Source: Clostridiaceae bacterium (GTDB taxonomy: Bacteria > Bacillota > Clostridia > Acetivibrionales > Acetivibrionaceae). Taken from it: DNA of 44,535 nucleotides. How positions within the stretch are numbered: the first letter of the stretch is position 1; every line of letters begins with the position of its first letter. Below, in pieces: positions 6,617 through 43,678 of the stretch. A model generated the notes under the pieces. That model made no database searches. It had not been told where the DNA came from and saw only the letters and a program-made list of their open reading frames with translations. Location of the stretch: the NCBI GenBank assembly GCA_012519925.1, contig JAAYPF010000201.1:1-44535 (forward strand), written 5' to 3'. Position numbers and translations under genes: made by a program.

Positions 6617-6654
6617 AAAATTAAGGCCTCGGAAAAATCCGAAGCCTTAATTTT
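6617..6654. terminator. Bidirectional terminator
   Basis: AAAATTAAGGC (6617-6627) pairs with GCCTTAATTTT (6644-6654), and TCGGA with TCCGA inside, around an AAAA loop. It ends the gene at 6228-6593. Read on minus it is followed by a T-rich stretch and could end the probable 6S RNA transcript. Confidence 0.85.
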
Positions 6655-6675
6655 ATATATTTAATACCCAAAATG

Positions 6676-6868: not shown

Positions 6869-6899
6869 GCTAATCTTAGCTAACTCTGATTACAAAATC

Positions 6900-6929
6900 A
6901 TTATAACATCATACAAGCTATTAAAACAA
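6900..6929 (-). promoter_or_regulatory. Promoter of the probable 6S RNA
   Basis: On the minus strand TTGTTT (6929-6924), an 18-base spacer and a perfect TATAAT (6905-6900). Transcription would start near 6893 and enter the structured RNA. Confidence 0.5.
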
Positions 6930-7096
6930 ACAATGCTATACACATTTAAAGTCTGTAAACAACGGATATTTTTAATAAACTTTATTTTACTTAATAAATC
7001 TAAATTTCTTCTTATCTTACGATTTTAAAAGCTTTAAACTCAACTATCATAGGCATTTTTGCCTATTGTATCCATGGGAATATTACCCAATATCTG

Positions 7097-7990: not shown

Positions 7991-8194
7991 TTTATCACCA
8001 AACTTTATTTTTTCATATTACTTCTGCTATATATAATACCCCTTTTTTCTGATATAATCTATATAAGGCGATTTTAATTAATAACTGGTCAATTAATGTA
8101 TAAAGAAGCTGATTTTAGCAGGTTGGAATATATATTGGCCGATAGATTTATTAAGATACCTTAAACAGAAAAATAATCTGAAAGGATACATCTT

Positions 8195-8971: not shown

Positions 8972-9136
8972 AAAAATAATGCCCACTTGATAAGGAGAGG
9001 TTGATTTACTTAGTGTTAAAGCAATTCTCCATGGTTACGCCCAGGAGCTTTGTACAACCTAAAAAGGAGCATATCATTTTATTCAATCACTTGTGTGATA
9101 TTCATTTTTTTGTAGCAGATAACAAAGTCAACAGTG

Positions 9137-9976: not shown

Positions 9977-10215
9977 GGATATACCTCCAGTATGCTACGC
10001 ATATATTTCCTATGTTATTATATATATTTACATATCCAACATAAAATTAACAAATATTTTAGTTCAAAACGGTAATAACAAAGTTTATTAGGAATAAATT
10101 TCACTTAAAAATGCTTAGATTAAATATTATCACAAAACCTATTGTAAGTTCAACTATGTAATTCATAGAATAACTTTCATTTGCAAAGCTAGATAGAGAT
10201 AAAGAACTCAGAAAA

Positions 10216-10251
10216 GGGAAAAAGAGAGTTAGACTCTCTTTTATATTTCCC
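10216..10251. terminator. Hairpin, probable terminator
   Basis: AAAGAGAGT (10221-10229) pairs with ACTCTCTTT (10233-10241) around a 3-base loop, with GGGAA/TTCCC (10216-10220 and 10247-10251) outside. No gene ends nearby, so it may close a small untranslated transcript or a lost gene. Confidence 0.5.
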
Positions 10252-10610
10252 TAAATACTCATCTTTAGTTTCTTTTGATGTCTTCATTAGCTTCTTCTTT
10301 TCTTTTATCTTCCGTAGAAGATTTAAAAAAACAACAACTTTATATATAAAAACTGAAGGTTTGAGCTAAAAAATTAGAAAATACATAATTTTTATTATAT
10401 CTTTAGCTATATTATGTACATCACAGCAATCTATTATACATCATATTGTGTTACACGTATATTTTATCATTTGATTGCATAAAGTCAATACAATTTACTA
10501 AAAATCATGTAGGTAATTAGTACTATTTGTCCTAAAATGTCATACTTTGCAATGGCAATACCTATTATTTTACTGTCAAATGCCTCTATTGACACTTTAC
10601 ACTAAAACAA

Positions 10611-10652
10611 AAATGAGATTACTGCATTTAATAAATAACAGAAATCCCATTT
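10611..10652 (-). terminator. Terminator of the ytxC-like gene
   Basis: On the minus strand AAATGGGAT and ATCTCATTT pair (9 bp, one G-U), with an inner CTG/CAG and ATTT/AAAT stem, followed by TTGTTTTAG. It lies 35 bases behind the stop codon. Confidence 0.65.
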
Positions 10653-10686
10653 AGCATTTTAAATCCCATAGATGCTTATCTGAATT

Positions 10687-11592
10687 TTAGCTTTTATTCT
10701 CACTTCTAGCCACTTTCACCAAGCAAAGCTCACACTCGGGACAAATAATAGCTTTGCCCCAAAAAACATTTTTAATTGTCTCTAAAAGCTCCTTATTTCT
10801 AAAACTACTAGCACTGTGTACTATTACTTTTTTAGGTGCCATAGTTATAAGGGAACTAACTAGCAAATCATCGTAATTTATTTCACCTTCAGGTATGTCA
10901 TTCATAAATTCCTGAATACACTCATTTGTTATTTCCTTTTTATTTTCATCTAATAAGATATACTTGTTATCATAGCTTACCAGCACATGAATTACATTAA
11001 ACTTAGGTTCTTGTATATCCACAAAATATCTTAATAGACAAATAAATTCCTTATATTCTCTCTCGGTAAGGAAATCATCTACCGCTTTGTCTACAACTTC
11101 CTCCAAGTCTTTCATGTAGTCTTTAAGTCTAAAATTCACAAAACCATCAAGAATTACTTTATCCGAACTCTCAAAATAGTCAACTAACTTTCGAATAATT
11201 ATATTTCTTCTCCTTATCTGAAATATGCTATTTAAAAAGTTCTTATCGCTATTTCTAATAATAAAAAGAGCCAACCTTAGTATTTCTTTCTTTTCTATAG
11301 AATTGAAATAGCAGTAGTTGCTGTTTATTATTCTGAGAATTAGTTTTTCCTCATATTCTTCAATTATATAATCTGCCAAACCGTTTGATATGCTCAATAT
11401 CAATTGATCATATTCGGGTGTGTTCTTTTCATCTTGGTTAATTGTGCATATTACAGAAGTTGAGCCATCTAAATCAACACTATCTTTTACAGAACAGTTA
11501 TTGTTTAATTTATTCAGCTTTTTCAGTTCATTAGTTATATATCTTTTAACACTTTCTGCACAGTCATTAACCCCAATACAAAGACACTGCAT
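10687..11592 (-). CDS. ytxC: YtxC-like sporulation-associated protein
   Basis: A 301-aa protein recognised as YtxC-like mainly from the central DKVILDGFVNFRLKDYMKDLEEVVDKAVDDFL segment and overall length. YtxC is found in endospore formers and has no firm biochemical role. The C-terminal part carries APKKVIVHSASSFRNKELLETIKNVFWGKAIICPECELC, with a CPEC motif near the end. The open frame starts with GTG at 11601, but AAGGGA lies only 2 bases before it and about 10 before the ATG at 11592, which is preferred. It is followed by its own terminator and is probably monocistronic. Confidence 0.72.
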   Translation of the reverse strand: MQCLCIGVNDCAESVKRYITNELKKLNKLNNNCSVKDSVDLDGSTSVICTINQDEKNTPEYDQLILSISNGLADYIIEEYEEKLILRIINSNYCYFNSIEKKEILRLALFIIRNSDKNFLNSIFQIRRRNIIIRKLVDYFESSDKVILDGFVNFRLKDYMKDLEEVVDKAVDDFLTEREYKEFICLLRYFVDIQEPKFNVIHVLVSYDNKYILLDENKKEITNECIQEFMNDIPEGEINYDDLLVSSLITMAPKKVIVHSASSFRNKELLETIKNVFWGKAIICPECELCLVKVARSENKS

Positions 11593-28751: not shown

Positions 28752-30932
28752 TTATTTTGTTATTTCTCTAATTCCAAGTAAATGAAGTCTCAATGCACCA
28801 AAGTCAAGTGAATTGAATTCTCCATCTTTGTTAATATCTGCTGCTTGTAATGCTTTACCAGTGAAATCACTATTCATTCCAAGCAACACTCTTCTCATAA
28901 GTCCAAAGTCAAGAGAATCTCTTTCGCCGTCAAGGTTAACATCTCCAAGAAGTACATCACTTGGTATCTGAGTATCACCTACAGGCTTATAACCGAAGAT
29001 TTCAGCTATACCTAAAGCAACAGCATAGTCAACTTGATGCCAATATCTATGAAGAGTATATTCGAATAAGTTGTCCTCAGTTTGGTTTTTAATTCCTTCA
29101 TACCAAGGATCATCCTTGTATTTTGAACGAATATCTATGAACGTAACACCGGACTTGATAACGTCTCCATTAGGCATTGTACCTGTCCATCCTGATGGAA
29201 TATAAACTTCCTGTGTAAACATACGGCTAAGTGATCCGTTAGTTTCTACTACACCAACTCCGTAATCGTCACGGCAAGTTTGCCATACTACTTCTAACAT
29301 GCTTAGTGCTTTATTAGCAGCTTTTTCACCAAGATCTTTATTGCCACTCCACTTATTAACAGCTTGATCATAGAAGAAGAACGCATTTGCAAGTGAACCG
29401 GTAATACCAATGTCATTACCATAGCCTACTACAGTACACTTCAAGTTGTTATTATCAGGTTTTTTTCCTGTCCATGTATCAGGCTGACCTTCCCACTTCA
29501 ATGTAGAAGGTATTTCCCATGATAGATTATCTAAATCAGCTTTACAATGGGATTCAGCCCATTCAACCCACTTATCACATATTTGTCTAGCTAAATCGTC
29601 TCCAGTTTCGTAGTAAACTTCACACATACGTTGCATTGACCATGCCTGCATACCGAACCAGTTGTTACTTGGTGGATCGCGATAAACAGGAGCATAATCG
29701 TATGCTAAATCATAGAATGTTGACAAAGATCCATAGGATTTGTACTGTCCACCAACTGAGTTTGTAACACCACCTGCTATAGCACCTTCAGCTGACTGTA
29801 ACCATGCATACATTTCAACTTGTCTCTTAAAGCTTGAGTTCCAGTCTTTCGCACCACCTGAAGACTTAGGTTTGAATTCTGACTTGTTACCTAAAACATA
29901 AGCAGCCAAAGGAGCTTGATAACCCCAGTGAACGTGGCTACTACCAATCTTCCATGACCAGTCACCTGCCATAGCACCGCCCCAAGCATAATACCAAGAC
30001 ATGAGATATAGACATGAATCATAACCAGAACCAGGAGTTTTATCCTGTGCTCCAACCTTCATGAAATATTTGTCAAACATTGAATATCTCAAGTAGTCAC
30101 CCATCTTTGCAGCTTTCGCATTGAGTGTACTTAAATCCTTACCTTGTTCTTTTGCCCATTTATCTGCCCAGTATTGAACCTGTACCAAACGTCCGTCTGC
30201 GTCAGATGCAATAGTGAAGGCCCATTTCTTTTGAGTCTCCCCTGCAGTAAATAAATCAGCAAACCCTTGTCTTCCACCATATTTAAATTCTTCTAATGAT
30301 GGATGTGGAACAGTTTCGAAAACTGATTCCTGTTCACCTCTTTGATAAGTATTGATAAATGTACACTTATCACCTGTTCCATAACCATACCAGTTATCAA
30401 CGTCTACCAACCAGTGCATACCATACATTGCATATGTATTATACGCAGAATAAAGTTCTTGGTGGAGAGGGTCTTGCCCAACTGTTACGTTTGATTGAAT
30501 TTCTGCAGGATAATTGTCAGGAAGAGGGAACTCATTCGCATAACCTGCTGGGGATGATGGATTATATCTGTCCAAACCTTTTTGTATTGATTCAGATGGA
30601 ATGAAGAAATCTTCTACACACTGCCAAGCTCTATCCAAGCCTGACCAATCTCCGTTAATCTTACCGTTAACAGCTTCTAACCAAGCATAGTAACTTGCAG
30701 CTTCAGAAGTTGATTCATGACCATAGTCAGGAGCCTCAACGCATAGAGTCTCAATTGAGTGGTAAGGAATACCCTCTGAGTCATAGTATCCTACTGCAGG
30801 ATCATTAATTATGTCGTACATTTCATTAAATCTGTCTTTAAAAGTCTCATTTGCTGCACCTACATTTGCTGCTGGTACAACTGATGCCGTTAATAATGAA
30901 AAAGCCAATAAAAACATTGCCGTTTTTTTCAT
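28752..30932 (-). CDS. Cellulosomal GH48 exoglucanase with C-terminal dockerin (CelS/CelF type)
   Basis: A 726-aa secreted processive cellobiohydrolase that acts from chain ends of cellulose. Residues 1-26 are a signal peptide (MKKTAMFLLAFSLLTASVVPAANVGA). The GH48 domain fills about 27-655; the catalytic acid region is CVEAPDYGHESTSEAASYY (Glu in GHESTSEA), with aromatic tunnel segments such as GMHWLVDVDNWYGYG and GDWSWKIGSSHVHWGYQ. The C-terminal dockerin has two calcium-binding repeats, GDVNLDGERDSLDFGLMRR and ADINKDGEFNSLDFGALRL, both with Ser-Leu at the cohesin-contact positions. RBS GGGAGG precedes the ATG. A SigI-type promoter lies 560 bases upstream and sigI-rsgI are the next genes. 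Confidence 0.97.
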   Translation of the reverse strand: MKKTAMFLLAFSLLTASVVPAANVGAANETFKDRFNEMYDIINDPAVGYYDSEGIPYHSIETLCVEAPDYGHESTSEAASYYAWLEAVNGKINGDWSGLDRAWQCVEDFFIPSESIQKGLDRYNPSSPAGYANEFPLPDNYPAEIQSNVTVGQDPLHQELYSAYNTYAMYGMHWLVDVDNWYGYGTGDKCTFINTYQRGEQESVFETVPHPSLEEFKYGGRQGFADLFTAGETQKKWAFTIASDADGRLVQVQYWADKWAKEQGKDLSTLNAKAAKMGDYLRYSMFDKYFMKVGAQDKTPGSGYDSCLYLMSWYYAWGGAMAGDWSWKIGSSHVHWGYQAPLAAYVLGNKSEFKPKSSGGAKDWNSSFKRQVEMYAWLQSAEGAIAGGVTNSVGGQYKSYGSLSTFYDLAYDYAPVYRDPPSNNWFGMQAWSMQRMCEVYYETGDDLARQICDKWVEWAESHCKADLDNLSWEIPSTLKWEGQPDTWTGKKPDNNNLKCTVVGYGNDIGITGSLANAFFFYDQAVNKWSGNKDLGEKAANKALSMLEVVWQTCRDDYGVGVVETNGSLSRMFTQEVYIPSGWTGTMPNGDVIKSGVTFIDIRSKYKDDPWYEGIKNQTEDNLFEYTLHRYWHQVDYAVALGIAEIFGYKPVGDTQIPSDVLLGDVNLDGERDSLDFGLMRRVLLGMNSDFTGKALQAADINKDGEFNSLDFGALRLHLLGIREITK

Positions 30933-31691: not shown

Positions 31692-33095
31692 TTAGTAAGG
31701 CTCGATTCCCCAAACGAGTTCATTAGAAATATACACAGTCATTTTGTTCCAATCGGAAAATGCTAAATTGCCTTGATAAAACGACCAATCGTCTTGCTGA
31801 TTAAATTTGGTCCAATCCTCCCTTGTGATTTCACCAAATACCCAAGCAGACTCTCCAGGAGATATACTGCCTTTTTCAAAGGTTACTTCAAGATACCTAT
31901 TTGTAGAATCAAGTTTTGCAATATTATAAACTTTTCCATTAACATCAGTTTTCTCTTCTCCTAAGCTATAATAATAAACGGAAAAATTAATAGTTTTATC
32001 CACATCTTCTTTAAAATAATATCTTACCTTAACATTCTTTAAATTTATCAGTTCGTTTCCTGTATTCTCCAGAACAAAATCCCATCGTATAGCTTGACTT
32101 GAAAGCTCCTGTTTCTCATTATAATGCTTGAGCTTAATTATTTTTTTATTTTCTACAGTGTTTTCCACAGAAGTCCCTTTTGTCGGTTTTGGAGGTGAAT
32201 TTGTCAATTCACCATCCTTAGGTTGAGTTGTAACAATAGGCGATGTTTCGGGCATTGGGCTAGAGGATGCTTTTATATTATCATTTTGTAAATAAGATTT
32301 TGTAGGTACAAGTGTAGGTGCCGGCGTAGCTACATTAGTAGCAATAGAATTTATCAAATCAGATACCTTCATAGTAGCTATTTCATCTATAGATTTAGCT
32401 TTTCCCTGTTCCTTTAATTTAAGAAAATAATCATATTTACCCATTGAAATGTCAAATTCACTAGCAGCTTCTCTTTCCTCAAGAGTTAATCTTACTGTTT
32501 TTCCATCAATATTACTGTTATTGTCTTCTATTACTTTTTCTATTTTATCAAGTAATTTATCAATATCCGAAGAGCCAGAACTATTACTTGCATTAGTTTC
32601 ATTGTTTGCATTCTTTAATGCAGCAGAAATTAATATATCTGTCTTTTCTTCCACTCCGATATATCCATAGTTTTTTGACCCTTTAATAATTTCCATCACA
32701 ACATCCTCAATAGGTCTTAAGGTCAAATCAATATCGTTTATCAGCTTAGCTGCGTCATCATTAAAAGCAACCGCTTTTAGTACTTTGTAATCCCTGTTAA
32801 TACAAAACTCCATGCTCGGATTTATATCAACAGCTATATAAGCATATATATCAGTATTTGCTGGTATCATTCTGAAAAACACAAATAATAAAACACATAC
32901 TGCTGCTATACCTGCACCTATGGAGACATACTTATAATGATTGTTTTTGAGCGTGCAGATATCTTTATCGTCAAAAGCGATCTTTTGCCCTAAACACATA
33001 TCTTCACGCTTTTGTATCATAACAAAACTTCTATTTTGCGTTAATACAACCGCTTTATCATTTCTAATATCGTACACAATTCCATAGTTATTCAC
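31692..33095 (-). CDS. rsgI: Anti-sigma-I factor RsgI with C-terminal CBM3
   Basis: A membrane anti-sigma factor that holds SigI and senses polysaccharide outside. The cytoplasmic RsgI_N domain is about residues 1-53 (NNYGIVYDIRNDKAVVLTQN...). One transmembrane helix (YVSIGAGIAAVCVLLFVFF) follows. The periplasmic-type domain begins YAYIAVDINPSMEFCINRD, with the Asn-Pro bond described as an autocleavage site. A Ser/Thr/Pro linker precedes a C-terminal CBM3 of about 150 residues (RWDFVLENTGN, SPGESAWVFGEITR, DDWSFY). GTG at 33095 is preferred (AAGAAGG 8 bases upstream); the longest frame starts with GTG at 33104. It overlaps sigI by 8 bases and the pair is translationally coupled. Confidence 0.94.
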   Translation of the reverse strand: MNNYGIVYDIRNDKAVVLTQNRSFVMIQKREDMCLGQKIAFDDKDICTLKNNHYKYVSIGAGIAAVCVLLFVFFRMIPANTDIYAYIAVDINPSMEFCINRDYKVLKAVAFNDDAAKLINDIDLTLRPIEDVVMEIIKGSKNYGYIGVEEKTDILISAALKNANNETNASNSSGSSDIDKLLDKIEKVIEDNNSNIDGKTVRLTLEEREAASEFDISMGKYDYFLKLKEQGKAKSIDEIATMKVSDLINSIATNVATPAPTLVPTKSYLQNDNIKASSSPMPETSPIVTTQPKDGELTNSPPKPTKGTSVENTVENKKIIKLKHYNEKQELSSQAIRWDFVLENTGNELINLKNVKVRYYFKEDVDKTINFSVYYYSLGEEKTDVNGKVYNIAKLDSTNRYLEVTFEKGSISPGESAWVFGEITREDWTKFNQQDDWSFYQGNLAFSDWNKMTVYISNELVWGIEPY

Positions 33096-33855
33096 AACTT
33101 TCACCTTCTTTGCTTAGTAAGTAACTCTTCGAAATTTCTAGGTTACTTCTCAAAATCAAACACACAGCAATAATGTATTTCCTATGTCTTCCTATTGTTC
33201 TTCCGTGAACACCAGCTCTCTTCTTAAGATCATTCCTAGGAATATTTTTATACTTGCACAATAATTGAAACAATTCTTCGTCATCTGCAAGAATTGTAGC
33301 AATTCTAAGGCATAGTTCCCTTGAATCCTTATGTTTAGGAACGCTTAGAATAAGCTCTACAAAATTAATCCCAAATTCTTCTAAGGTTTCTTTATATTCA
33401 ATAAGCTCTTCCCTTATTTCAACATCCTCAAAGCTTCTATCTTGTACAGGACTTAAATATCTTTCGAGCAGCTCACTTTCATCATCAAAATATGAAAAGG
33501 GAAGCTCTTTATTTCTCCTATTTTTCCTCATATAATCAATCAAACGTCTTTTTATAACATGTTCGCTAAACAAAAGGAAATTGTAATTTCTTGTCAAGTC
33601 GTAACTGTCTATTGCCTCATTGAACGCTGATAGAACTATACTGAATTCATCGCTGTTTTTTACGTCAATATATTTTCCCACAGCATTTGCTGCAATCTTC
33701 AACATGAAAGGAGTGTATCTGGATAAAAACTCTTCTCTTAAGAGTTTGTCGCCTTCTTTTATTAGTCTAAGTTTATTAACAAATTCGTCATTAGAAGCTT
33801 TATCACCAGACTTACTTCTGCTAAAGTTTAAAAGATTTCGCCCTTTCAACAACAC
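33088..33855 (-). CDS. sigI: RNA polymerase sigma factor SigI
   Basis: A 255-aa sigma-70-like factor of the SigI family. Region 2 is LREEFLSRYTPFMLKIAANAVGKYIDVKNSDEFSIVLSAFNEAIDSYD, followed by NFLLFSEHVIKRRLIDYMRKN; the C-terminal half ends in a helix-turn-helix typical for SigI (RNDLKKRAGVHGRTIGRHRKYIIAVCLILRS). It should read the promoter of the GH48 gene downstream once RsgI lets it go. The start is GTG at 33855 with TGGAGGGAGAAGG upstream. Overlaps rsgI. Confidence 0.94.
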   Translation of the reverse strand: MLLKGRNLLNFSRSKSGDKASNDEFVNKLRLIKEGDKLLREEFLSRYTPFMLKIAANAVGKYIDVKNSDEFSIVLSAFNEAIDSYDLTRNYNFLLFSEHVIKRRLIDYMRKNRRNKELPFSYFDDESELLERYLSPVQDRSFEDVEIREELIEYKETLEEFGINFVELILSVPKHKDSRELCLRIATILADDEELFQLLCKYKNIPRNDLKKRAGVHGRTIGRHRKYIIAVCLILRSNLEISKSYLLSKEGESCE

Positions 33856-34195
33856 CCTTCTCCCTCCATAATAAATAATTCGTGAAAATAAAAATTTTAG
33901 TGTACACTAGGTGGTTGCAAAGTTGTTTTTGGAATTGCCTTAAGACTTTTCGAACCAACTTGCCCAATTTTTGAGTATTATTATATATATCGTCTTTTTA
34001 CGTTATAAGCACATATAATTATGCACTTTAACCTCAGCAAAAAACAACCGTCCTGTATTTATATAGTTACAGGACGGATTGCAAAAAACCTAGAGAAATT
34101 TCATTGTATTTGGAATTTTAAAGTAAATATCGACCTCATACAATTCTTCTTTAAATCGTTTGTTTTAGCAAATACCTCTACATAAAAACAGGAAG
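33856..34195 (-). other. Leader/promoter region of sigI
   Basis: 340 bases between the ATPase gene and sigI. Two CGAA sequences on minus (33952-33949 and 33882-33879) have an A-run upstream (CTCAAAAA and ACTAAAA), but spacings differ (17 and 13 bases), so autoregulation by SigI is possible and not demonstrated. The ATPase operon terminator is at 34048-34077. The rest shows nothing. Confidence 0.4.
34048..34077 (-). terminator. Terminator of the flotillin-ATPase operon
   Basis: CCGTCCTGTA (34048-34057) and TACAGGACGG (34068-34077) form a 10-bp perfect stem; on minus it is followed by TTGTTTTTTG. It lies about 120 bases behind the ATPase stop. Confidence 0.88.
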
Positions 34196-37100
34196 TTATT
34201 TCTTTGACCTTCCTCGGTCTATACGGTCTAAAAATTGGGTAACGCCCTTTCCATGAACATCTTTTAGCTGAGTTACCGCATTGGCTAAACTAGTAAGGGA
34301 TTGGGCTTCATTTATAGAATTCTCAATGCCTTTAGATAATACTTCGCTTATTGTTCCAAGCTTTTCACTAAATTCGTTGAGCATAAGCACAGCCTGCCCA
34401 ATTTTGTCATCACCTTTTACGAGTTTGTTTTTATTAAATAAAGTCTTTATTTCTTTCCATCGTATTTCTTCCTGCTCAGAAAGGCATCCTACAAGTTCCT
34501 TCCATTTGAGCATGTTAGCCTCTGAACCTGTTGAAAGTGTCTGGGCATCGTTCTCATATGTTCCTGAAATAAGGGCATCAAGTTCTTCATCATTCATTAC
34601 AGCTAAGACCTTTTCAGCAATCTTGTTCATATTTCTATAGGAACCTTGAAGTTTGAAAGCCGGCTCATTTCTATATTCATCCGCCTGAGCTGCAGAACGA
34701 ATATATTCCAAATTTACTTTCAGCACTATATCCCGCACTTTTAATAGTTTCTTTATAACCTCAACAAACTCGTTTATCTCTTCAGCAGTATAATTACCTT
34801 CGAAATCCAAACCTTCCCTGTCACCTTTTTGAGCAATTTCTATAAGAGTGTAAACATCCTTTTGACTTCTTGTGGCAAGCTTATTTAAAACCGGATTGGA
34901 GGTAAGGCTGTTTTCAATATAGCTAAGCATAAACGCATCTTCATTTTCTCTTAGCATATCACCTAAATTATAAACATCTGCTCTATTTGCAAGCATATCA
35001 GGAATTTGGAACTTAGTTCCGCTTTCGGTGTAAGGATTACCTGCCATAACAACTACAACCTTCTTACCTCTAAGGTCATAGGTCTGCCCCACGCCGTTAT
35101 AAACCCCCTCAATCCTTCTCTGCCCGTCACACAGGGAAATAAATTTCTGCAAAAATTCGGGGCTACAATGCTGTATATCATCAATATATATCATTACATT
35201 ATTACCCATTTTAAAGGCAAGGTTGAGCTTCTTAAGCTCCTCCTTAGCTCCGGTACTTTTTGCTAATGCCGGATCAAGAGACACAACTTCATGACCTATG
35301 GCCGGACCATTTATTTTAACCATTGTAATGCCCAAACGGCTTGCAACATACTCCATAAGTGTTGTTTTACCATAACCTGGAGGAGATATAAGCAGTAACA
35401 TTCCCATTAAGTCAGTCCTCTTATCCTCACCTACTACACCTATTTGTTTTGCGAGATTATCACCGATTATAGGAAGATAGACCTTATCAATAAGCTTACT
35501 TCTCACAAAGGATGAAAGTACATCCGACTTAAATTCATCAAGTTTTAGTTCCTTTCTCACATTCTGTGTAAGCTCCTTCTTCAGGTTTTGGTACTCTTCA
35601 AAGTCCCTTACTGTCGATGACTCATATTTTCTCATCTTCTCTAAAAATTCTGTGTAAGTAAATACAAATTTTCCTTCTGCAATGGTCGGGTGGTCACCTA
35701 CGAGCCCTTCAACCTCTACCCGAGTCCTAGTTTGAATAACATTTTTACTATTATAACTTTTTAAAACCAGTATAATTATAGCTTCATAAAAGGCATCGTT
35801 TACTTCAGTTCTACCCGAATCCTTTAAAAAGGCTTTTAGCCACTCCTGGACAAGGTAAAACAATCCTTCTAAATCATTTTCAACATTTTTCATAGACTCG
35901 TCAAACTGCTCTATTGCCTTCTTTTCTTTGAGATGTGCTATAAACGCTTTATAAATTTCGTCTGCCTCAAGGCTTATAACGAAAGTGTCTCCTCTCATCA
36001 ACTCCTTGCAAAGATATAAAGCCGCCTGTGGTATGAGCTCTTTTTCTATAAAAGACAACTCTGAAAAGGCTTCTTGCATAGCAGTTTTGATAGAAGGAAT
36101 ATATGCACTTAAATCAGGTTCAGTCTTAAAGAATTTTGAAACCTTAGCCATCTCTTTAAGTCTTATTTTGAATTTTTCCTCTTCAGGACCTCTAAACCGT
36201 GTCCAAAAAAGCTGTGCCATCGCTCTTGCTTTTGCATTAAATATCAGCAAATCTATGTTCTTGTGCAAATTTATTAATGCTCTAAGAAGGCTCCTACAGT
36301 CTGTATCATGTATTCCTTTTGAATAGGCCTCTTGATATCTTGGTTCCATAAACTTTCGAATAAATTCAAGAAGCTGCTCCTCAGAATAAGAATAGAGTTC
36401 ATCTATAGATACTGTCTCCTTGTTTAGTGCTGCAGTAAAAATTTTATAGGTCAAATACTGAGCACGGTATACATCATTATTCTCGGACACCACGCTCTGT
36501 TCCCATACATGCCTAAGTCTAGATACTTTTTCATTGCAAACTTTGTCCCAAAAATCCGTCCCTGAAATATGAAAATACAGCTCTCCATCCTTCTGAACTA
36601 CTGAAATTTCAAGCTTTTGCGTATTTACAGAAAAATATTTATTACCAAACTTAATAACATTTCTTCCATCGACATAAAGATCCTGTTTATCCTTTAGCTG
36701 GCGTACCGCATCTTCCTTTATTGTCTTGAGTCTACCCTCAATTTCATCTGCCTTGACATTATCTCCTAGAGCTTCAAGTTGGTCAACGGTATCCCTTACC
36801 TTCTCAATCATAATATCTGAAGCAAAATAGCCGTTTATCTCATTTATTGTCTTGAAGCCTTTAAGTCTATTTATTATCCCGGTCAATACCCTGTCTGAAG
36901 CATTAACAAGGGTCGCAACCTTTTTGCTCCTGTTGTCTAAAAGCACCTGTTTCCTAGCCTCAAAAGCATTATAGAGCTCTTCGCGCTTTTCGGAAAGCTT
37001 TACAACATAATCATCAAAATCAGCAAATTTTCCTTCAAGCTCATCAATCTGTATCATAACCTTACCTAAATAGTCTTCACACTTTTCAGTTGTATCGGCT

Positions 37101-39226
37101 ATATCAAGGTAATTCACCACTGCCTGGTCTAAAAGCTTCATCTGGGAATTGAACTGTGCTGTACCTTCAACACTGGCCAAATCTCCCATTCGTGTTTTAA
37201 GCTTTGCTTTCGCCTGATTCAATTGAGAGTATATCAAAGATATATTTTCAATAATCTCAGTTGTCTTAGTAGGATCTTCTATATTAAAATTACTCACAAT
37301 ATCAATAAGCATTTCAAGATCTGAAGAAGTTTTAGCCATATCCTCGGAAAGCTCTTTACCTGTAGAGGTCTTTTCCACCTTATCAATTTGCTGCTGATGT
37401 TGATTCACTCGTTCTGTGTATGGTTTCAAACCCTCCGGATCCAAGAGAAAATCCACACATTTCTGTGAAAACAGTTCATTTTTTTCCTTTACTTTTGCTT
37501 CTAGAGACTCAACTAAAGAAAGGTTGGTATATCTTAAATCCTTTAGGGAAACAATTTCGCCTCGGATATTTCTCACATTTGCCAAAACCGATACATAATC
37601 GGCAATACTGTCAAAATTCCCATACTCAATCTCTCTGAGAAGCTTTTGAGTCTTTTCATCCACTTCATTTATTTTTGAAGCTGTAGCATTCCTTATCTTT
37701 GTGACCTTTTCAAATTCGGCAACTGCAGATGAGGAAGCTTCTTTTATATTTATAAGTACACTTTTTATATCATATGCTTCTTCATCAGAAATCCAAAAAT
37801 AAGAATCCACAATCTGACTAGCTTCCTTTAAAATATCTACATAGATATCAGCATAGCCCTCTCCCTTTTGGATTAGGTTGCATAAAAGCTTACAATCTGC
37901 CATGCAGTTTACAATGTCTTTATTCCCTATTTTGTAAAGAAACGAATTATTCTCTTTTGTCTCTAACACATAATTTTTCCCAAAAAACGGAGTTTGCCAT
38001 ATTTGAACCATGTGGTTCTTTCTAGGCTCCTCTCCAGCATTAAAAACTATCATTTCCCCATTGTCAAAATGGGCAAACCCACTGCACACTATAGGGGTTT
38101 CTACGGTTTGCTCAATCACATTATAGGAATACACGAGATAGGAACCACTGTCAATATTATAAAAGAAATATTGATAGTCTTCACCGTTTGGAGCTTCATC
38201 TTTTTGCTCGAAGATACATTGGTCCACCGGGACATCAAACAGTTTATAGTCTCCGCTCTTCAAATAATATCCTTTTGGAAAAATAAGCCCTTGATCATCG
38301 GGAAGCAGCATGCAAGCTTCCTTAATGTCGTCGATACGAACAACGCTTTTAAGTTTATCATTAAAAATGAAGTATCTAAATTCCTTTTCCTTATACGGAC
38401 GAATTTTTAACAGTACAATATTTCCAAGAATAGTATAATAAATCTCCGCATCATCAAGTGTCTGATCCTTATCCTCTACTGGCTCGGAATAAATCCCCTT
38501 TCCGGTATCGGTATTGTCTTCCACCTTGATAGTGAGGTCTCCATCTACTGTCTCAACAAAAACTCTGTCCTGTATCGACACATGAGGGAACAAACCATCC
38601 CTATGGTCTTCTCGTCTTGTCCTGACCCAATCAAACTCGTTTTTACTTTGAAATCTTACTTCATGGTCACTTCTATTATCGATATATGTAATTTTTCCCT
38701 CTTCAATTAGCCATTTGAACGCCTTTATATCATGTGCACTCTTACCTGTTTGAAATATCATATAAAGGTGTGGTTCAATCAATGTAAACTTAGCGAAAAA
38801 AGTGTTTTTATAGTAGGTATACAGTTCATTAAAATCCGCTATAAATTGCGGGTGTTTTAGCCCAACTAAGTCAATCTTTTGAAAAGTATGCTCCTTATAT
38901 TCATACATGGCAAAAACGTCCTCAAGCTCAACTTTAGCCTTTAGACCCATATAAACATTATAGCCAAAAATAAAGGAAGTTCCCACGGGAACCATATCTC
39001 GTGGGACACAGTTATTGTCTGTGATAAGTCTTTCACTTCCAATAATCGTAGTATCTATCGAGCCAAAAACTTGCTTTCTGGCATCATTCAGCTTTTTAAG
39101 ACGCTCATCAAGGTCATTACCATGTTTGAGTAATCGATTTTTTATTACTTCGTAGGTACCGTTTTCTAAACTCTCAGGTTTTTGAACAGTTTGTTCTGTT
39201 TGCTCGACTTTTTTGACTTCATCCAC
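34196..39226 (-). CDS. Giant AAA+ ATPase (DNA repair ATPase/DUF3686-type), flotillin-associated
   Basis: A 1676-aa protein. The first 440 residues are beta-rich and resemble the N-terminal region of proteins annotated as DNA repair ATPase; no catalytic motif is seen there. Residues of about 490-850 are long coiled coils. An AAA+ module of MoxR-like type follows: Walker A SPPGYGKTTLMEY near 1282, Walker B NVMIYIDDIQ near 1345, sensor-1 VMAGNPYTESG near 1394, and a likely arginine finger in ANRADVYNLGD. A helical lid and tail end it. The name comes from automatic annotation; no repair role is established. The gene is last in an operon with an OB-fold membrane protein and a flotillin, which suggests work at the membrane. 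Start GTG at 39226; GAGGTG and AAGGAA lie upstream. Confidence 0.78.
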   Translation of the reverse strand: MDEVKKVEQTEQTVQKPESLENGTYEVIKNRLLKHGNDLDERLKKLNDARKQVFGSIDTTIIGSERLITDNNCVPRDMVPVGTSFIFGYNVYMGLKAKVELEDVFAMYEYKEHTFQKIDLVGLKHPQFIADFNELYTYYKNTFFAKFTLIEPHLYMIFQTGKSAHDIKAFKWLIEEGKITYIDNRSDHEVRFQSKNEFDWVRTRREDHRDGLFPHVSIQDRVFVETVDGDLTIKVEDNTDTGKGIYSEPVEDKDQTLDDAEIYYTILGNIVLLKIRPYKEKEFRYFIFNDKLKSVVRIDDIKEACMLLPDDQGLIFPKGYYLKSGDYKLFDVPVDQCIFEQKDEAPNGEDYQYFFYNIDSGSYLVYSYNVIEQTVETPIVCSGFAHFDNGEMIVFNAGEEPRKNHMVQIWQTPFFGKNYVLETKENNSFLYKIGNKDIVNCMADCKLLCNLIQKGEGYADIYVDILKEASQIVDSYFWISDEEAYDIKSVLINIKEASSSAVAEFEKVTKIRNATASKINEVDEKTQKLLREIEYGNFDSIADYVSVLANVRNIRGEIVSLKDLRYTNLSLVESLEAKVKEKNELFSQKCVDFLLDPEGLKPYTERVNQHQQQIDKVEKTSTGKELSEDMAKTSSDLEMLIDIVSNFNIEDPTKTTEIIENISLIYSQLNQAKAKLKTRMGDLASVEGTAQFNSQMKLLDQAVVNYLDIADTTEKCEDYLGKVMIQIDELEGKFADFDDYVVKLSEKREELYNAFEARKQVLLDNRSKKVATLVNASDRVLTGIINRLKGFKTINEINGYFASDIMIEKVRDTVDQLEALGDNVKADEIEGRLKTIKEDAVRQLKDKQDLYVDGRNVIKFGNKYFSVNTQKLEISVVQKDGELYFHISGTDFWDKVCNEKVSRLRHVWEQSVVSENNDVYRAQYLTYKIFTAALNKETVSIDELYSYSEEQLLEFIRKFMEPRYQEAYSKGIHDTDCRSLLRALINLHKNIDLLIFNAKARAMAQLFWTRFRGPEEEKFKIRLKEMAKVSKFFKTEPDLSAYIPSIKTAMQEAFSELSFIEKELIPQAALYLCKELMRGDTFVISLEADEIYKAFIAHLKEKKAIEQFDESMKNVENDLEGLFYLVQEWLKAFLKDSGRTEVNDAFYEAIIILVLKSYNSKNVIQTRTRVEVEGLVGDHPTIAEGKFVFTYTEFLEKMRKYESSTVRDFEEYQNLKKELTQNVRKELKLDEFKSDVLSSFVRSKLIDKVYLPIIGDNLAKQIGVVGEDKRTDLMGMLLLISPPGYGKTTLMEYVASRLGITMVKINGPAIGHEVVSLDPALAKSTGAKEELKKLNLAFKMGNNVMIYIDDIQHCSPEFLQKFISLCDGQRRIEGVYNGVGQTYDLRGKKVVVVMAGNPYTESGTKFQIPDMLANRADVYNLGDMLRENEDAFMLSYIENSLTSNPVLNKLATRSQKDVYTLIEIAQKGDREGLDFEGNYTAEEINEFVEVIKKLLKVRDIVLKVNLEYIRSAAQADEYRNEPAFKLQGSYRNMNKIAEKVLAVMNDEELDALISGTYENDAQTLSTGSEANMLKWKELVGCLSEQEEIRWKEIKTLFNKNKLVKGDDKIGQAVLMLNEFSEKLGTISEVLSKGIENSINEAQSLTSLANAVTQLKDVHGKGVTQFLDRIDRGRSKK

Positions 39227-39257
39227 AGTTCCTTACACCTCATCTTATAAAGTACTA

Positions 39258-39274
39258 GGGGGCTTTTAGCCCCC
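39258..39274 (-). other. Intercistronic hairpin between flotillin and ATPase genes
   Basis: GGGGGC (39258-39263) and GCCCCC (39269-39274) with a 5-base loop form a very stable 6-bp stem. There is no T run on minus, so it is more likely an mRNA stabiliser or processing element that sets the ratio of the two proteins than a terminator. Confidence 0.5.
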
Positions 39275-39347
39275 GATATTTATTCCACTTCTTTCAAACA
39301 GAGTGAAAGCGGTAAAAAGGTTAGGACCTTATGTCCTATAGCTCTTA

Positions 39348-41453
39348 TTATAATTCTTTGTCAATTAACGAAGCGGATTCACCTGCAAAACCAGCCTTTT
39401 CTACGGTTTCTAAAAGCTTAGAGAGTATCGGAATATCTTTTGAATCCGCCTGACGCATCATTTTGCTTATTGCACCAGATATAGTCAAATTCTTTAAGTC
39501 TTCCGAGGTCATATTAAATCTCGAAGTCAAGTTTTGCAATTGTGTTCTAAAGTATTCAGGATCTCCCACTATGAATGTATCCTTTATATCTTTCAGCACT
39601 TCACTACTACCTATCATACGGTCGAAGGATTTACCCTGAGAAATTGAGCCAATAATCTTATCAAAGAACATAGTCTCACCACCAACGATATCAATCTTGG
39701 CAGCTTTAAGTGCTTCTCTGATAACTGAAGCCTGAGACTCTGCAATTTCTTTTTGAATATTGATATTTGCAAGCTCAATTTCCTTTTCTTTTTCAAGTCG
39801 AAGCTTGAATTCTTCATGTGATCTTCCTGCTTCATCAAGAGCTTTCATACTGTTTGCCTTTTCAGCAATACCTTCCGCTTCTGCACGGTATTTCTTAGTC
39901 ATAATATCAGCTTCTACTGTTCCTGCCTTTTCTTGGACATTAACTTTGGCTTCCTCACCCTTAGCTTCAGCTAAAGCCTTCATTTCTATTGCCTTTGCTT
40001 CTGCCTCTGCTGTTATTTGCATAACACTGGCCTTAGAAGATCCTTCTTTCTCTATAGCTGCTGCCTTTGCTTCAATAACCCTAGCCTCTGCAATACCCTT
40101 TGTAGCTTCCTGCAGAACTTCTGCATCAACAAGAGTCTTAATTGCCTCTGCCTCTTTTTCTGAAGCTTTGAGCTTTGCCTCTGCCTCAATTATCTTCTGC
40201 TCTGCTACTCTTTCTGCTGCTTGTTTTGCTGCTTCAGCAGTTCTAACTTCCACTATCAGCTTCATTTCAGCTTCTTCTTCTGCCTTCTTAAGTGCTACCG
40301 CTTTAATACGTTCAGCTTCAGCAATTGCTCGAGTATCTTTAATCTTTTCTTCTTCAATAACAACATCTTTTTCAACTGCTACTCTTTCCCTAATAACAGT
40401 CTGAATATTCTTCTTTTCTTCTTCTACTGATTTAAGCTTTTCTATTTCAGCAAGCTCTACTAGCTTTTCCTTTTCTGTCTTTTCAAGAAGACGTTTTCTG
40501 TCAACACGTTCTGTTTCAATAACATCGGTGCTCTCTCTGGATTTCTGTGCCACAATAATCTGTCTTTGTCTATTTTCCTCTGCAATAGCAATCTCTTCAT
40601 CTGCTTTAATACGTGCCATTTCAGCTTTGAGTCTCTCTTCCTGCGCAACCTTTTGTGCCTCTGCCTGCTCTCTAGATCTAATAATCGCAATTTCCCTAGT
40701 CTGCTTTGCTTCAGCTTCTTGATTTTGTTTTTCAAGCTCTAAAATTGCTTCTCTCGCAGTTATATCCTGCTGTTTTATAGTCTTTTGCTTATCTCTCTCA
40801 ATCTGATTGGCAAGCACCAATTGCTTCGCAGTCAGCTCTGTAATCTTTTTAATACCTTCCGCATCTAATATATTGTCACTGTTGAGTTTGTTTACATCGG
40901 TCTGTTCGAGGTAGTCTATTGCCGCATCATCAAGGGCATATCCATTTAGGTCTGTACCTATTATTTGAAGGATTTCGTCTTTAAACTTCTCTCTTTCGGT
41001 ATAGAGCTGTACAAAATCAAACTTCTTACCTACAGTCTTTAATGCCTCGGAGAATTTAGCATCGAAGAAATCCATTAAAGTTGCTGGATCTGATGCCTTA
41101 GCACAACCTAACAACTGGGCAACTTTCAGAACATCTTCTTTGGTCTGATTTACGCGAACGAAAAACGCAACTCGGATATCTGCTCTTAAATTATCTTTAC
41201 ATATAAGACCATCTTTACCTTCTCTTGCAATTTCAACTCTTTTTACTGAGATATCCATAACCTCAACGTGATGTAGTATAGGTACAATCAGTATTCCCCC
41301 AAAGGCTACTACTGGGCCACCCACACCGTTTCGTACTATAACCTTCCCCTGATCCACCTTGCGGTAGAACCGTGAAAATAAAGCAAGTATACCCACCGCA
41401 ATGATTATACAAGCAACTATTGAAATTACTATAATTTGTACCACTTCCGACAT
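39348..41453 (-). CDS. Flotillin family protein (YqiK type)
   Basis: A 701-aa SPFH protein that forms oligomeric scaffolds in ordered membrane patches. One N-terminal transmembrane helix (IIVISIVACIIIAVGILALF) is followed by the SPFH/band-7 domain at about 30-200 (VRNGVGGPVVAFGG, RVEIAREGKDGLICKDNL, RADIRVAFFVRV). Residues 205-600 are a very long heptad region rich in Glu, Ala and Lys with repeated EAKA and AEAEAKA stretches, and the last 100 residues form a globular cap. AGGAGTGAGGTAGCAAT precedes the ATG. It starts 4 bases after the YqiJ-like gene, as yqiK follows yqiJ in E. coli, and is followed by the ATPase. Confidence 0.92.
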   Translation of the reverse strand: MSEVVQIIVISIVACIIIAVGILALFSRFYRKVDQGKVIVRNGVGGPVVAFGGILIVPILHHVEVMDISVKRVEIAREGKDGLICKDNLRADIRVAFFVRVNQTKEDVLKVAQLLGCAKASDPATLMDFFDAKFSEALKTVGKKFDFVQLYTEREKFKDEILQIIGTDLNGYALDDAAIDYLEQTDVNKLNSDNILDAEGIKKITELTAKQLVLANQIERDKQKTIKQQDITAREAILELEKQNQEAEAKQTREIAIIRSREQAEAQKVAQEERLKAEMARIKADEEIAIAEENRQRQIIVAQKSRESTDVIETERVDRKRLLEKTEKEKLVELAEIEKLKSVEEEKKNIQTVIRERVAVEKDVVIEEEKIKDTRAIAEAERIKAVALKKAEEEAEMKLIVEVRTAEAAKQAAERVAEQKIIEAEAKLKASEKEAEAIKTLVDAEVLQEATKGIAEARVIEAKAAAIEKEGSSKASVMQITAEAEAKAIEMKALAEAKGEEAKVNVQEKAGTVEADIMTKKYRAEAEGIAEKANSMKALDEAGRSHEEFKLRLEKEKEIELANINIQKEIAESQASVIREALKAAKIDIVGGETMFFDKIIGSISQGKSFDRMIGSSEVLKDIKDTFIVGDPEYFRTQLQNLTSRFNMTSEDLKNLTISGAISKMMRQADSKDIPILSKLLETVEKAGFAGESASLIDKEL

Positions 41454-41457
41454 ATTG

Positions 41458-42099
41458 CTACCTCACTCCTTCAAATTTTTTTATAATGTAATAACTCCTA
41501 TCCTCCACCTTTTTCAAAACAATTGCCTTGTCTCCTTTCAGTAGAGTTTCCCCTTGCTCTTGAACCTTTACATTTATCAAAATTGACGATCCTAGCCTTT
41601 CTATTTCAGCCTGGCCTAAACGACCATATTTTATATCAGATAAAAGCGTGCAAAGCTGACCTTCTATTTTTATGTCACTTTCCACATCTCTCATTACACC
41701 TTTAAATAATCCTTTCAGTGGATGGGTAACAGCTTTGGTTATAAACAAACTCACTATTATATTAGGAATAATTAAGATTGCATTTATCAATCCCTCAGAA
41801 ACGATTGGTAAAACGGCTATTATCATGGAAATTGTCCACAAACTGAGGCAAAAAACGCTGAGCACTATCATAAAGGGTATTTCTCCTACATTTAAAAAAG
41901 CAAGAAAACCATGGAAGGGACTGGTAATTACTTCTCCCTCTGGAATATCCAAATCTAAATCTAAATCTAAGTCAAAATCGAACAAATCAATATCAATTGC
42001 ACCAATAATAACCGAGAGCCAATAAAGAACTATAATCCCTAAGAGTACAGAGGGAATAATATTTATTCCTGTTATAGATAACTTAAATAATTCAAGCAT
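41458..42099 (-). CDS. OB-fold membrane protein, YqiJ/NfeD-like
   Basis: A 213-aa protein with about four hydrophobic segments (LLGIIVLYWLSVIIGAI; IPFMIVLSVFCLSLW; TISMIIAVLPIV; INAILIIPNIIVSLFITKAV) and a C-terminal beta-rich OB-like domain (IEGQLCTLLSDIKYGRLGQAEI ... ILINVKVQEQGETLLKGDKAIVLKKVED). NfeD-type partners bind flotillins and are encoded next to them. Between the first two helices lies an acidic stretch with alternating Asp-Leu (DFDLDLDLDLD) encoded by near-identical hexamers. AAGGAGATGTATA precedes the ATG. First gene of the operon. Confidence 0.82.
   Translation of the reverse strand: MLELFKLSITGINIIPSVLLGIIVLYWLSVIIGAIDIDLFDFDLDLDLDLDIPEGEVITSPFHGFLAFLNVGEIPFMIVLSVFCLSLWTISMIIAVLPIVSEGLINAILIIPNIIVSLFITKAVTHPLKGLFKGVMRDVESDIKIEGQLCTLLSDIKYGRLGQAEIERLGSSILINVKVQEQGETLLKGDKAIVLKKVEDRSYYIIKKFEGVR
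41950..41990. repeat. Short tandem hexamer run inside the YqiJ-like gene
   Basis: On plus, AAATCT is repeated three times from 41950, followed by AAGTCA and AAATCG, encoding Asp-Leu repeats and Asp-Phe. Repeats of this kind can gain or lose units without shifting the frame. Confidence 0.6.
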
Positions 42100-42308
42100 T
42101 ATACATCTCCTTTGCTTCGGAAATTATAGTGTAAATATATAGCAATATGCTTATTTTGTCAATATTGTTTACCGTCTATTACTAATAACAACAGTTAAAT
42201 TTCTTCACTTTTCAAGCAGTATTAATTGCAATTAATAATTTTAATCAGACACTTTTCATACAACATCGTATAATAATATAAATAAAGTTAGCAAGAGGTG
42301 TTTATATA

Positions 42309-42509
42309 ATGAAAAAGCTATATCTGTCCGATAGTGATAAAAAAATTGAAGGTGTGTGTGGGGGAATAGGCGAATATTTCGGTATTGACTCCACACTTAT
42401 AAGGATTATTTGTGTATTGCTTGCTTTTGCATCCTTCGGAACAACATTGGTGGCATATATTATTTGCTGTTTTGTTATACCTAAAAAGCCTTATTCAAAG
42501 GAATGGTAA
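42309..42509 (+). CDS. PspC domain protein
   Basis: A 66-aa membrane protein consisting only of a PspC domain: KKLYLSDSDKKIEGVCGGIGEYFGIDSTLIRIICVLLA, then a transmembrane stretch and FVIPKK. PspC proteins belong to envelope stress (phage-shock) responses. GCAAGAGGTG precedes the ATG. It is divergent from the YqiJ-flotillin-ATPase operon with about 210 bases between start codons, so the two could share a control region. Confidence 0.9.
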   Translation: MKKLYLSDSDKKIEGVCGGIGEYFGIDSTLIRIICVLLAFASFGTTLVAYIICCFVIPKKPYSKEW

Positions 42510-42546
42510 CTCAATATAGTAAGCAAATCATAGCAATTCTTAGATG

Positions 42547-42624
42547 AAGAATTCAGAATTTAAGTATTTAGAAGTTTGAATTAGTAATAATTTGATTCTC
42601 TAAATGCTAGTGTTCTGAATTCTT
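42547..42624. terminator. Long inverted repeat behind pspC
   Basis: AAGAATTCAGAA (42547-42558) is perfectly complementary to TTCTGAATTCTT (42613-42624); an inner 10-bp stem AGTATTTAGA/TCTAAATGCT follows. It lies between the convergent pspC and coiled-coil genes and may be a bidirectional terminator. It shares the outer word AATTCAGAA with the repeat at 15953-16015. Confidence 0.55.
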
Positions 42625-42717
42625 TGGCTATATTGTGGTATGCAATAAGAGAACGCTTTGAAAGTGTTTAATAAATCTTCTATGAGTAAAACAGCTTAGT
42701 ACAATGACTACGTAAAC

Positions 42718-43449
42718 TTATCTCAAATCCATCAACTTAGAGATATCTCTTATGCTCTCCGAGAACGCTTCTACATTCTGGTTTAGATCTCTAATCTCTT
42801 CATCGCTCATCTGTTCTTTCAATTCTGATGCTTCAATAATAGCCTCTATCCGCTGCAGTGAACTCAAAATAAAATGTAGCTTGGATTCACATTCATCCAA
42901 ATTGCTTTTTATACCAGTCATTTCTTCTAAAGTACGCTGCTTCTCCTCAAGGGCTTTCTGGTATGTTTCTTTAGCATTATCCCCCGAAACACTTCTTAAT
43001 TTATTCTGTAATGAGCTTATCTCCGACTTTATTCTGCCCTCTTTGCCTCTTAAAAACTCTGAACTCTTTCTATAGTTTGCAACAATGCCGGGTATTATTG
43101 CCTCAAAGTCTAGAATTTCTTCCATAAATCTTGATATTATCATGAATTTGCTATTGTCTTTTGATCTTTTCTTTAGATTTGTGAGAATCTGACTTATGTT
43201 CTTTATTACGGGTGTAAGTTTATCCCTTACTTTGTAAAGCTCCTTTAGGCTACTGCTTTCTGACTCGTCGGAATACTTTTTTGAAAGTAGACCTATTAAG
43301 GATGATATGAGAAATAGTATTCCGCCTAATATTAGTATTAGAACAGAAATTTTATTAAAAACAACTGCTAGTGCTATAGTACCTATCGCGATAATTATAT
43401 TAGGTTTGCTGAGAATAGCCCTTATAAAACGTCTAAGATTATTGTTCAT
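42718..43449 (-). CDS. Membrane-anchored coiled-coil protein, unknown
   Basis: A 243-aa protein. After a basic N-terminus (MNNNLRRFIRAILSKP) come two hydrophobic segments (NIIIAIGTIALAVVFN and VLILILGGILFLISSLIGLL). The rest, residues of about 65-243, is helical with heptad character (YQKALEEKQRTLEEMTGIKSNLDECESKLHFILSSLQR). Layout is that of a membrane-tethered PspA-like or scaffold protein, but I recognise no family. ATG at 43449 is chosen because AAAGGGATGAG lies just upstream; the longer frame starts with TTG at 43467. Lies on the same strand as the flotillin operon with pspC between them on the other strand. Confidence 0.7.
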   Translation of the reverse strand: MNNNLRRFIRAILSKPNIIIAIGTIALAVVFNKISVLILILGGILFLISSLIGLLSKKYSDESESSSLKELYKVRDKLTPVIKNISQILTNLKKRSKDNSKFMIISRFMEEILDFEAIIPGIVANYRKSSEFLRGKEGRIKSEISSLQNKLRSVSGDNAKETYQKALEEKQRTLEEMTGIKSNLDECESKLHFILSSLQRIEAIIEASELKEQMSDEEIRDLNQNVEAFSESIRDISKLMDLR

Positions 43450-43678
43450 TTTCTCATCCCTTTGCAATTATTTGATTACTACGGTCTTCATAAATATTTA
43501 CCATTATGAAAGCTTAAAAACTTCCAAATAGAAGAGTTGTTTTGCAGTGCAAAAATAAATCTGTTGTTTGAAATAGCGATTGATCTGTTGTTGTTCTGAA
43601 TCGCATATAACTTCTTAATTACTAATATAGTATATTTATGAACAAAATACAATTATGTTTTTTATGTTTTAGTTAGTA

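Follow-up and report, generated by a model that had tools for sequence, protein, structure and literature searches.

A conserved YqiJ-flotillin-ATPase operon as a candidate membrane-associated remodelling machine

Flotillin/NfeD scaffolds are widespread in bacteria, and their work is poorly understood. SPFH subfamilies and their NfeD operons have been surveyed (PMC2636767, in the part of its text available), and the YqiJ-YqiK pair of Escherichia coli K-12 and the YuaF-YuaG pair of Bacillus subtilis are operons of the same NfeD2-SPFH2 kind. The available text of PMC11222466 describes FloA-NfeD of Staphylococcus aureus as stabilising unfolded proteins, and NfeD operons have been described among the nine SPFH genes of Pseudomonas aeruginosa, in a main text whose available part does not contain the term "ATPase" when searched from word starts (PMC13086221). 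A larger operon, reported by Ravi et al. (2024; PMC11237479, section 19), combines an SPFH-flotillin protein, YqiJ and a beta-propeller AAA+ protein, with or without PspA. Its full form carries a CesT/Tir-PspA dyad, and abbreviated forms occur without it. Here, we analyzed an operon of this type in a contig of 44,535 nucleotides from a Clostridiaceae bacterium (JAAYPF010000201.1, assembly GCA_012519925.1), the whole of which is called the window below. Its three genes, for a YqiJ-like membrane protein, an SPFH/flotillin-like protein and a giant ATPase of the DUF3686 family, form one unit whose linkage is near-obligate. With a probability of about 0.5, we propose that the operon encodes a single membrane-associated remodelling machine, docked on flotillin, for membrane-protein quality control. 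The three genes are the following:

41458-42099, minus strand: YqiJ-like (NfeD2) membrane protein gene, 213 aa (open reading frame call, YqiJ_N)
39348-41453, minus strand: SPFH/flotillin-like gene of the YqiK kind, 701 aa (open reading frame call, Band_7)
34196-39226, minus strand: DUF3686-DUF7902-AAA+ ATPase gene, 1676 aa, GTG start (open reading frame call)

The order of transcription is thus YqiJ-like, SPFH, ATPase. The 4-nt gap between the first two genes (41454-41457), already seen in a first-pass annotation made from the sequence, was confirmed, and 121 nt separate the SPFH and ATPase genes.

In both the window and the operon of Ravi et al., a coiled-coil protein with a transmembrane segment and a band7 domain adjoins a membrane protein of the YqiJ/YuaF type, and the AAA+ module is fused to a beta-propeller and a coiled coil (predicted by AlphaFold 2 for the window). 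The window holds the abbreviated form, CesT/Tir-PspA being absent from its operon. The operon type is already published and the gene set is not new. On a Hymenobacter plasmid, we found the order CesT/Tir-PspA-YqiJ(DUF1449)-SPFH-"DNA repair ATPase", in which the SPFH gene is annotated as "hypothetical protein" and the families were confirmed by profile. This order matches the full operon of Ravi et al., and their "novel AAA+" is therefore very probably the DUF3686 family. What is added here is the DUF3686 identity, the MoxR-type fold, the near-obligate linkage and a linkage to rhomboid genes. The available part of the main text of Ravi et al. (PMC11237479) mentions neither rhomboid, TerB nor MoxR. 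The literature searched (a single library) yielded no mention of DUF3686, no paper holding "DNA repair ATPase" together with "flotillin" or joining rhomboid, SPFH, operon, AAA and bacteria, and no experimental study of the YqiJ-SPFH-ATPase operon. With E. coli K-12 YqiJ-YqiK, the window has in common the gene order and the homology of both membrane proteins, but no ATPase gene adjoins the E. coli pair. Homology was shown here for the E. coli pair, YuaF-YuaG being related to it as an operon of the same kind.

Conservation of the three-gene unit and its accessory genes

Genome contigs were scanned for the ATPase; of 310 relatives that were confirmed, the best 80 were taken as loci. These 80 and four further ones, less two duplicates on the same contigs (L013 = L059, L015 = L032), make 82 distinct loci; counts out of 84 include the duplicates. 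According to the record titles, the 80 come from Bacillota, Bacteroidota, Verrucomicrobiota, Pseudomonadota, Acidobacteria, Planctomycetota, Actinomycetota, Spirochaetes and other phyla. The three genes had earlier been taken for a set, and the ATPase, far from usually lacking flotillin and YqiJ neighbours, had both upstream on the same strand in 67 of the 68 distinct loci with at least 3 kb of upstream DNA. The YqiJ-SPFH-ATPase order was found in 41 of 42 clusters at 80% identity, the window not counted. Within the best 80 of 310, both partners were present in 65 of the 66 loci with at least 3 kb upstream; the 14 loci with shorter upstream DNA held SPFH in ten cases and both partners in four. 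In the one exception of its kind, L036, a CHASE2-guanylate cyclase gene occupies the place of SPFH and YqiJ. Between SPFH and ATPase, the spacing had a median of 113.5 nt, with extremes of an 11-nt overlap and an 829-nt gap, and was at most 50 nt in 26 loci (72 loci, duplicates included). Distance matrices of the three proteins correlated at 0.93 for ATPase-SPFH, 0.87 for ATPase-YqiJ and 0.88 for the remaining pair; for the two pairs with the ATPase, tested over 44 clusters, none of 2000 permutations was as high. These values would fit joint inheritance of the three proteins.

The spread of the operon is patchy. DUF3686 was detected in four of 391 genomes of the class, including the window's own, and in none of 14 control genomes, E. 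coli and B. subtilis among them. Among 398 genomes of the phylum, a YqiJ profile picked out two. These are precisely the two that carry DUF3686, and one of them is the window's own, so the independent evidence amounts to one genome. The profile is too narrow to reach distant relatives of the YuaF type, and at most seven first-look candidates were scored per genome, so that weak relatives may escape. The ATPase is encoded in 12 of 72,556 plasmid records (some as large as chromosomes), and 50,697 phage records yielded no copy. In each of the three plasmid records examined, YqiJ and SPFH were again upstream of the ATPase. The operon is real, conserved and portable. Since the scaffold is tied almost without exception to one giant ATPase across many phyla, its function can be tested through a motor whose catalytic site is clear.

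Accessory genes were counted over the 84 loci and the window, some loci being short and the families being checked on seeds or members. PspA was found near the operon in 23 loci (in 21 of them upstream and co-directional, in two on the other strand), DUF2170 in 21, a PLD-like gene in 20 and a rhomboid gene in 16. The rhomboid gene is located 3' of the ATPase gene or overlaps it in 16 of 84 loci, all within L061-L096. In 15 of these 16, its open frame, delimited by a stop codon on either side, shares bases with the 3' end of the ATPase frame or starts at most 5 nt from it, and in L087 it is 1.3 kb behind. GxSG and a following histidine of the usual type, which we take to be the rhomboid active-site motif, were each seen in 15 of 16 (the histidine in printed output), with both in 14. 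After clustering, rhomboid remained in four of 51 clusters (L061, L069, L082, L087), and the other accessory counts shrink too. A small TerB-like gene occurs in 12 loci, 11 times between SPFH and ATPase (L061, L062, L065-L068, L072, L076, L077, L079 and L096) and once 3' of the ATPase (L082); its 79-aa seed matched TerB and EF-hand models only below their cut-offs. A different TerB-type gene is located 3' of the ATPase in three Bacteroidota loci (L038, L039, L095). The fullest set, in gammaproteobacteria, reads DUF2170-PspA-YqiJ-SPFH-(TerB-like)-ATPase-rhomboid-PLD.

Two further observations concern PspA. In the window's own genome, a PspA-like protein just below the Pfam cut-off is encoded beside a 548-aa AAA ATPase (L106, 4464-7012, contig C170), a pair resembling the PspA plus AAA+ pairs in section 18 of Ravi et al. 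(PMC11237479). On plasmid pQBR103 (L107, 56-3110), genes for DUF2491, DUF350, DUF1190 and glutathionylspermidine synthase directly precede YqiJ-SPFH-ATPase. Ravi et al. (PMC11237479) assign these genes to another type of PspA operon, and the two types thus meet on this plasmid.

Predicted architecture of the proteins

The SPFH protein matched Pfam Band_7 (26.9 bits, cut-off 23.6) and aligned with E. coli K-12 YqiK over 403 columns (hhalign, E 5.6e-30, 33% identity). The YqiJ-like protein matched YqiJ_N (26.4 bits, cut-off 23) and is a distant relative of E. coli YqiJ (hhalign, E 9.6e-6, probability 82.6). By hydropathy, the SPFH protein has an N-terminal hydrophobic segment, in addition to a long coiled coil, and the YqiJ-like protein also has hydrophobic segments, whereas the ATPase has none. 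No solved homologue was found for the SPFH or YqiJ-like protein, and the search with the ATPase returned only seven weak matches, all round the P-loop. The YqiJ-like protein has a loop rich in Asp (DLDLDLDLD), encoded by repeated Asp and Leu codons at 41947-41990 of the window. The four aligned homologues also have Asp-rich loops, which vary in length.

Three Pfam families matched the ATPase above their cut-offs, namely DUF3686 (593 bits), DUF7902 (91 bits) and AAA (37 bits). Its predicted layout comprises a beta-propeller (approximately residues 56-413), coiled coils (430-850), a helical region and a MoxR-type AAA+ domain (1226-1581). The protein was modelled with AlphaFold 2 as two halves of 881 and 796 residues, using alignments of 51 rows; the mean predicted local distance difference test scores were 86.0 and 87.6 and the predicted TM-scores 0.60 and 0.74. 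In the models, an N-terminal helix is followed by 26 strands matching beta-propellers, helices of up to 58 residues, a small beta unit, the helical region and the AAA+ domain. For the strands, Foldseek returned propellers of prolyl oligopeptidases and KLHDC3 (E 3e-5 to 5e-4, with low TM-scores), and the best VIA match was the WD40 domain of DCAF1 (Z 9.4 over 225 residues, root-mean-square deviation 6.1), followed by many other propellers with lower scores. These matches are modest and are consistent with a predicted N-terminal beta-propeller. A kinetochore protein, the top Foldseek match of the N-terminal half, was dropped at a root-mean-square deviation of 37. The beta-rich N-terminus and long coiled coils of the first-pass annotation thus correspond to the predicted propeller and to the coiled coils after it.

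The 1676-residue ATPase had also been called MoxR-like, and this description is supported by the predicted fold. In a second comparison restricted to Foldseek's matches, the solved folds nearest to the AAA+ domain were CbbQ (Z 17.9 over 252 residues, root-mean-square deviation 3.5) and NorQ (Z 15.4-17.1), with dynein ranking next at 14.3. Sequence models alone do not settle the assignment: the best Pfam matches were AAA (37 bits), AAA_22 (30 bits) and AAA_5 (26 bits), and no MoxR-named Pfam or NCBIfam family was listed. Compared with the MoxR ATPases CbbQ, NorQ and RavA, the window protein differs in its fusion to a predicted beta-propeller and long coiled coils and in a Walker B motif that reads D-D. 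No protease domain was recognised in it by Pfam. Eight residues (Lys1287, Thr1288, Asp1349, Asp1350, Asn1397, Arg1415, Arg1519 and Arg1531) are the same in all 81 aligned sequences, which come from 80 loci and the window (L013, L015, L054 and L081 were excluded). We take them to be Walker A, the Walker B aspartates, a sensor-1-like Asn and conserved Arg residues. Their invariance argues for an active motor.

Proposed function and competing explanations

In our proposal, the SPFH/flotillin-like protein and its YqiJ/NfeD2 partner would assemble into an oligomeric scaffold at the cytosolic side of the membrane, where flotillin/NfeD assemblies may gather clients. The giant soluble ATPase would form a MoxR-type AAA+ ring, docked by its beta-propeller and coiled-coil arms on the scaffold or on the clients collected there. 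ATP hydrolysis would then drive the remodelling, extraction or refolding of membrane-associated proteins under envelope stress, with the docked ring powering remodelling or release. The conserved gene set and the intact motor residues are observed and the folds are modelled; from these, we infer ring and complex formation, a docking site, a client and a triggering stress. PspA, a CesT/Tir-type chaperone, a PLD-like protein and often a rhomboid are wired to the core in many gammaproteobacterial loci, which fits membrane quality control. A MoxR ATPase working at a membrane has a precedent in RavA, which forms a cage with LdcI and acts with ViaA at the inner membrane (available text of PMC6987120 and PMC9489729).

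Several points weigh against this proposal. L036 (a Cloacimonetes contig, 3613-10931) encodes the ATPase without SPFH or YqiJ despite full upstream DNA, and the loci set consists of the best 80 of 310 relatives, picked by similarity. The matrix correlations would be high through shared ancestry alone. The propeller matches are modest, a VIA Z of 9.4 standing against the 7-8 usual for models without a clear match. The second acidic residue of Walker B is usually Glu (D-E), and the motif is D-D in 81 of 81 sequences. The window operon has no PspA, CesT, rhomboid or PLD, and the sole PspA-like protein found in the window's genome is on another contig beside an AAA ATPase of its own. Finally, E. 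coli K-12 YqiJ-YqiK has no adjoining ATPase, so the scaffold can exist alone.

The rhomboid linkage suggests a more tentative extension. In the mitochondrial SPY complex (SLP2-PARL-YME1L) and in HflKC-FtsH, an SPFH scaffold is joined to an AAA motor, and SPY adds a rhomboid protease (available text of PMC6210556). In some gammaproteobacterial copies of the operon, SPFH, AAA and rhomboid proteins are likewise encoded together. The flotillin/NfeD scaffold and the propeller-MoxR motor could thus be a hub to which gammaproteobacteria add an active rhomboid and PspA, an independent counterpart of SLP2-PARL-YME1L in which the motor would pass clients from the flotillin cage to the intramembrane protease; we put this forward as a speculative possibility. 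The parallel is an analogy drawn from gene content, in some gammaproteobacteria only. Unlike SPY and HflKC-FtsH, the motor is of the MoxR type, the window operon is without rhomboid and the window system is known from genes alone. Of the features added here, the fold of the MoxR type and the link to rhomboid genes most deserve an experimental test.

Other functions were weighed against the flotillin-docked machine. The ATPase might act on membrane-coating polymers of the PspA type, as Vps4 does on Snf7 in the endosomal sorting complex required for transport, with flotillin and YqiJ as a mere anchor. PspA near 23 loci among the 84 and the window, the CesT/Tir-PspA-YqiJ-SPFH-ATPase order on the Hymenobacter plasmid and the membrane dynamics linked to the phage shock protein system, proposed by Ravi et al. 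(PMC11237479, section 19), all speak for it. However, most loci, like the window, have no PspA in the surrounding DNA examined (some loci being short), the one PspA-like protein of the window's genome, below threshold, already stands beside another AAA ATPase, and the nearest listed folds are MoxR proteins (a family outside the list could lie nearer), so that we consider this reading doubtful. Those same folds, CbbQ and NorQ, would suit the insertion of a cofactor into, or the maturation of, one membrane enzyme on a flotillin platform, as NorQ and CbbQ do with partners bearing VWA domains, and MoxR proteins are described as maturation chaperones in the sources available. Yet Pfam recognised no VWA domain in the proteins of the operon, to which the search for such a partner, typical of MoxR ATPases though not strictly defining, was confined. 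Nor did a client enzyme emerge from the neighbour clusters, which omitted seven loci, or from the 25 most frequent neighbour families. Maturation of a single enzyme therefore seems unlikely.

A role in anti-phage defence, which the first-pass annotation had raised, found no support from PADLOC, phage records or neighbours, and we regard it as very improbable. The patchy spread (four of the 391 class genomes with the window's own among them, and presence in one species but absence from its sister) and the 12 plasmid records would suit it. So would the PADLOC matches of neighbouring genes: 84 families had one or more matches among 137 neighbour proteins at E ≤1e-10, with strong single matches to AbiLi (8e-63) and mad6 (3e-63). 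The neighbours were proteins of 110-1100 aa, no more than two from either side of a locus, drawn from 40 clusters with G+C ≤62%; their matches were counted without a background rate and so neither establish nor exclude an association with defence islands. However, two of the 137 was the most that any PADLOC family matched, and many models cover general families. The operon proteins themselves gave only weak P-loop and coiled-coil scores, the best for the ATPase being IetA in the P-loop region (E 9e-4), with no PADLOC match for the SPFH or YqiJ-like protein. The absence from 50,697 phage records is weak evidence either way. As for DNA repair, the function given in Pfam and RefSeq wording, it had been judged a matter of annotation only, and the only further sign found was a weak resemblance to RuvB at the P-loop (E 1.8e-3 in PDB). 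This likeness is limited to some 50 residues round the P-loop, and the constant partners are membrane proteins. We give the repair reading hardly any credence, and the record name "DNA repair ATPase" is probably misleading.

Flanking genes and transcription signals of the window

The other features at the locus are listed below:

34039-34077, minus strand: terminator-like hairpin with T-run, 3' of the ATPase gene (by folding; resident at the site)
39257-39274 and 39322-39338, minus strand: two terminator-like hairpins within the SPFH-ATPase gap (fold z -2.8)
42134-42162, minus strand: sigma-70-type promoter-like site, TTGACA-17-TATATT, directly 5' of the YqiJ-like gene (consensus match 11/12)
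42309-42509, plus strand: PspC gene (open reading frame call, Pfam PspC 81.8 bits)
42718-43467, minus strand: coiled-coil protein gene (open reading frame call; the ATG at 43449 is the end given by the first-pass annotation)

In the genome of a sister species (G584), which has no DUF3686, RsgI, SigI, PspC and the coiled-coil protein are encoded in the same order and the three operon genes are absent. The homologous flanks stop at window position 34080 and resume at 42152, leaving a variable stretch of approximately 8 kb, and clear repeats bordering the cassette were not detected. The stretch upstream of SigI differs among three species of the genus. PspC was found near none of the 84 other loci (open reading frames of at least 60 aa searched), and the coiled-coil protein, in which hydropathy shows two overlapping hydrophobic stretches, at none of them either; it matches five of 30 relatives, including the window's own genome. 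Given the gene order in G584 and this absence, both genes are neighbours by position only. The suggestion that PspC and a two-transmembrane coiled-coil protein are parts of the system was thus rejected.

The terminator proposed behind the ATPase gene held in part. The hairpin with its T-run is present, and it also occurs at the empty site of G584 (88% over 43 nt) within the retained flank. It is therefore a feature of the site and not of the operon, which weakens it as proof of the operon's end. Another genome, G774, carries a similar hairpin. This strong structure 5' of sigI has been retained in the window and, in similar form, in two related genomes, irrespective of the sequence in front of it. 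Terminator-like sites across the region (four found, 5.5 expected from shuffles) were not above the mean. Since two such hairpins are located in the 121-nt SPFH-ATPase gap, expression of the ATPase may be attenuated here. Promoter-like sites were not in regional excess either (28 found, shuffle mean 31.9), and the site at 42134-42162 is a consensus match only.

Beyond the operon, the window contains a SigI/RsgI pair with a CBM3 sensor domain (31692-33855) and a GH48 cellulase with a dockerin (28752-30932), and the host is probably a cellulosome producer. A T-box leader (5618-5840), at the Rfam gathering score, and a 6S RNA (6661-6874), above it, were also detected.

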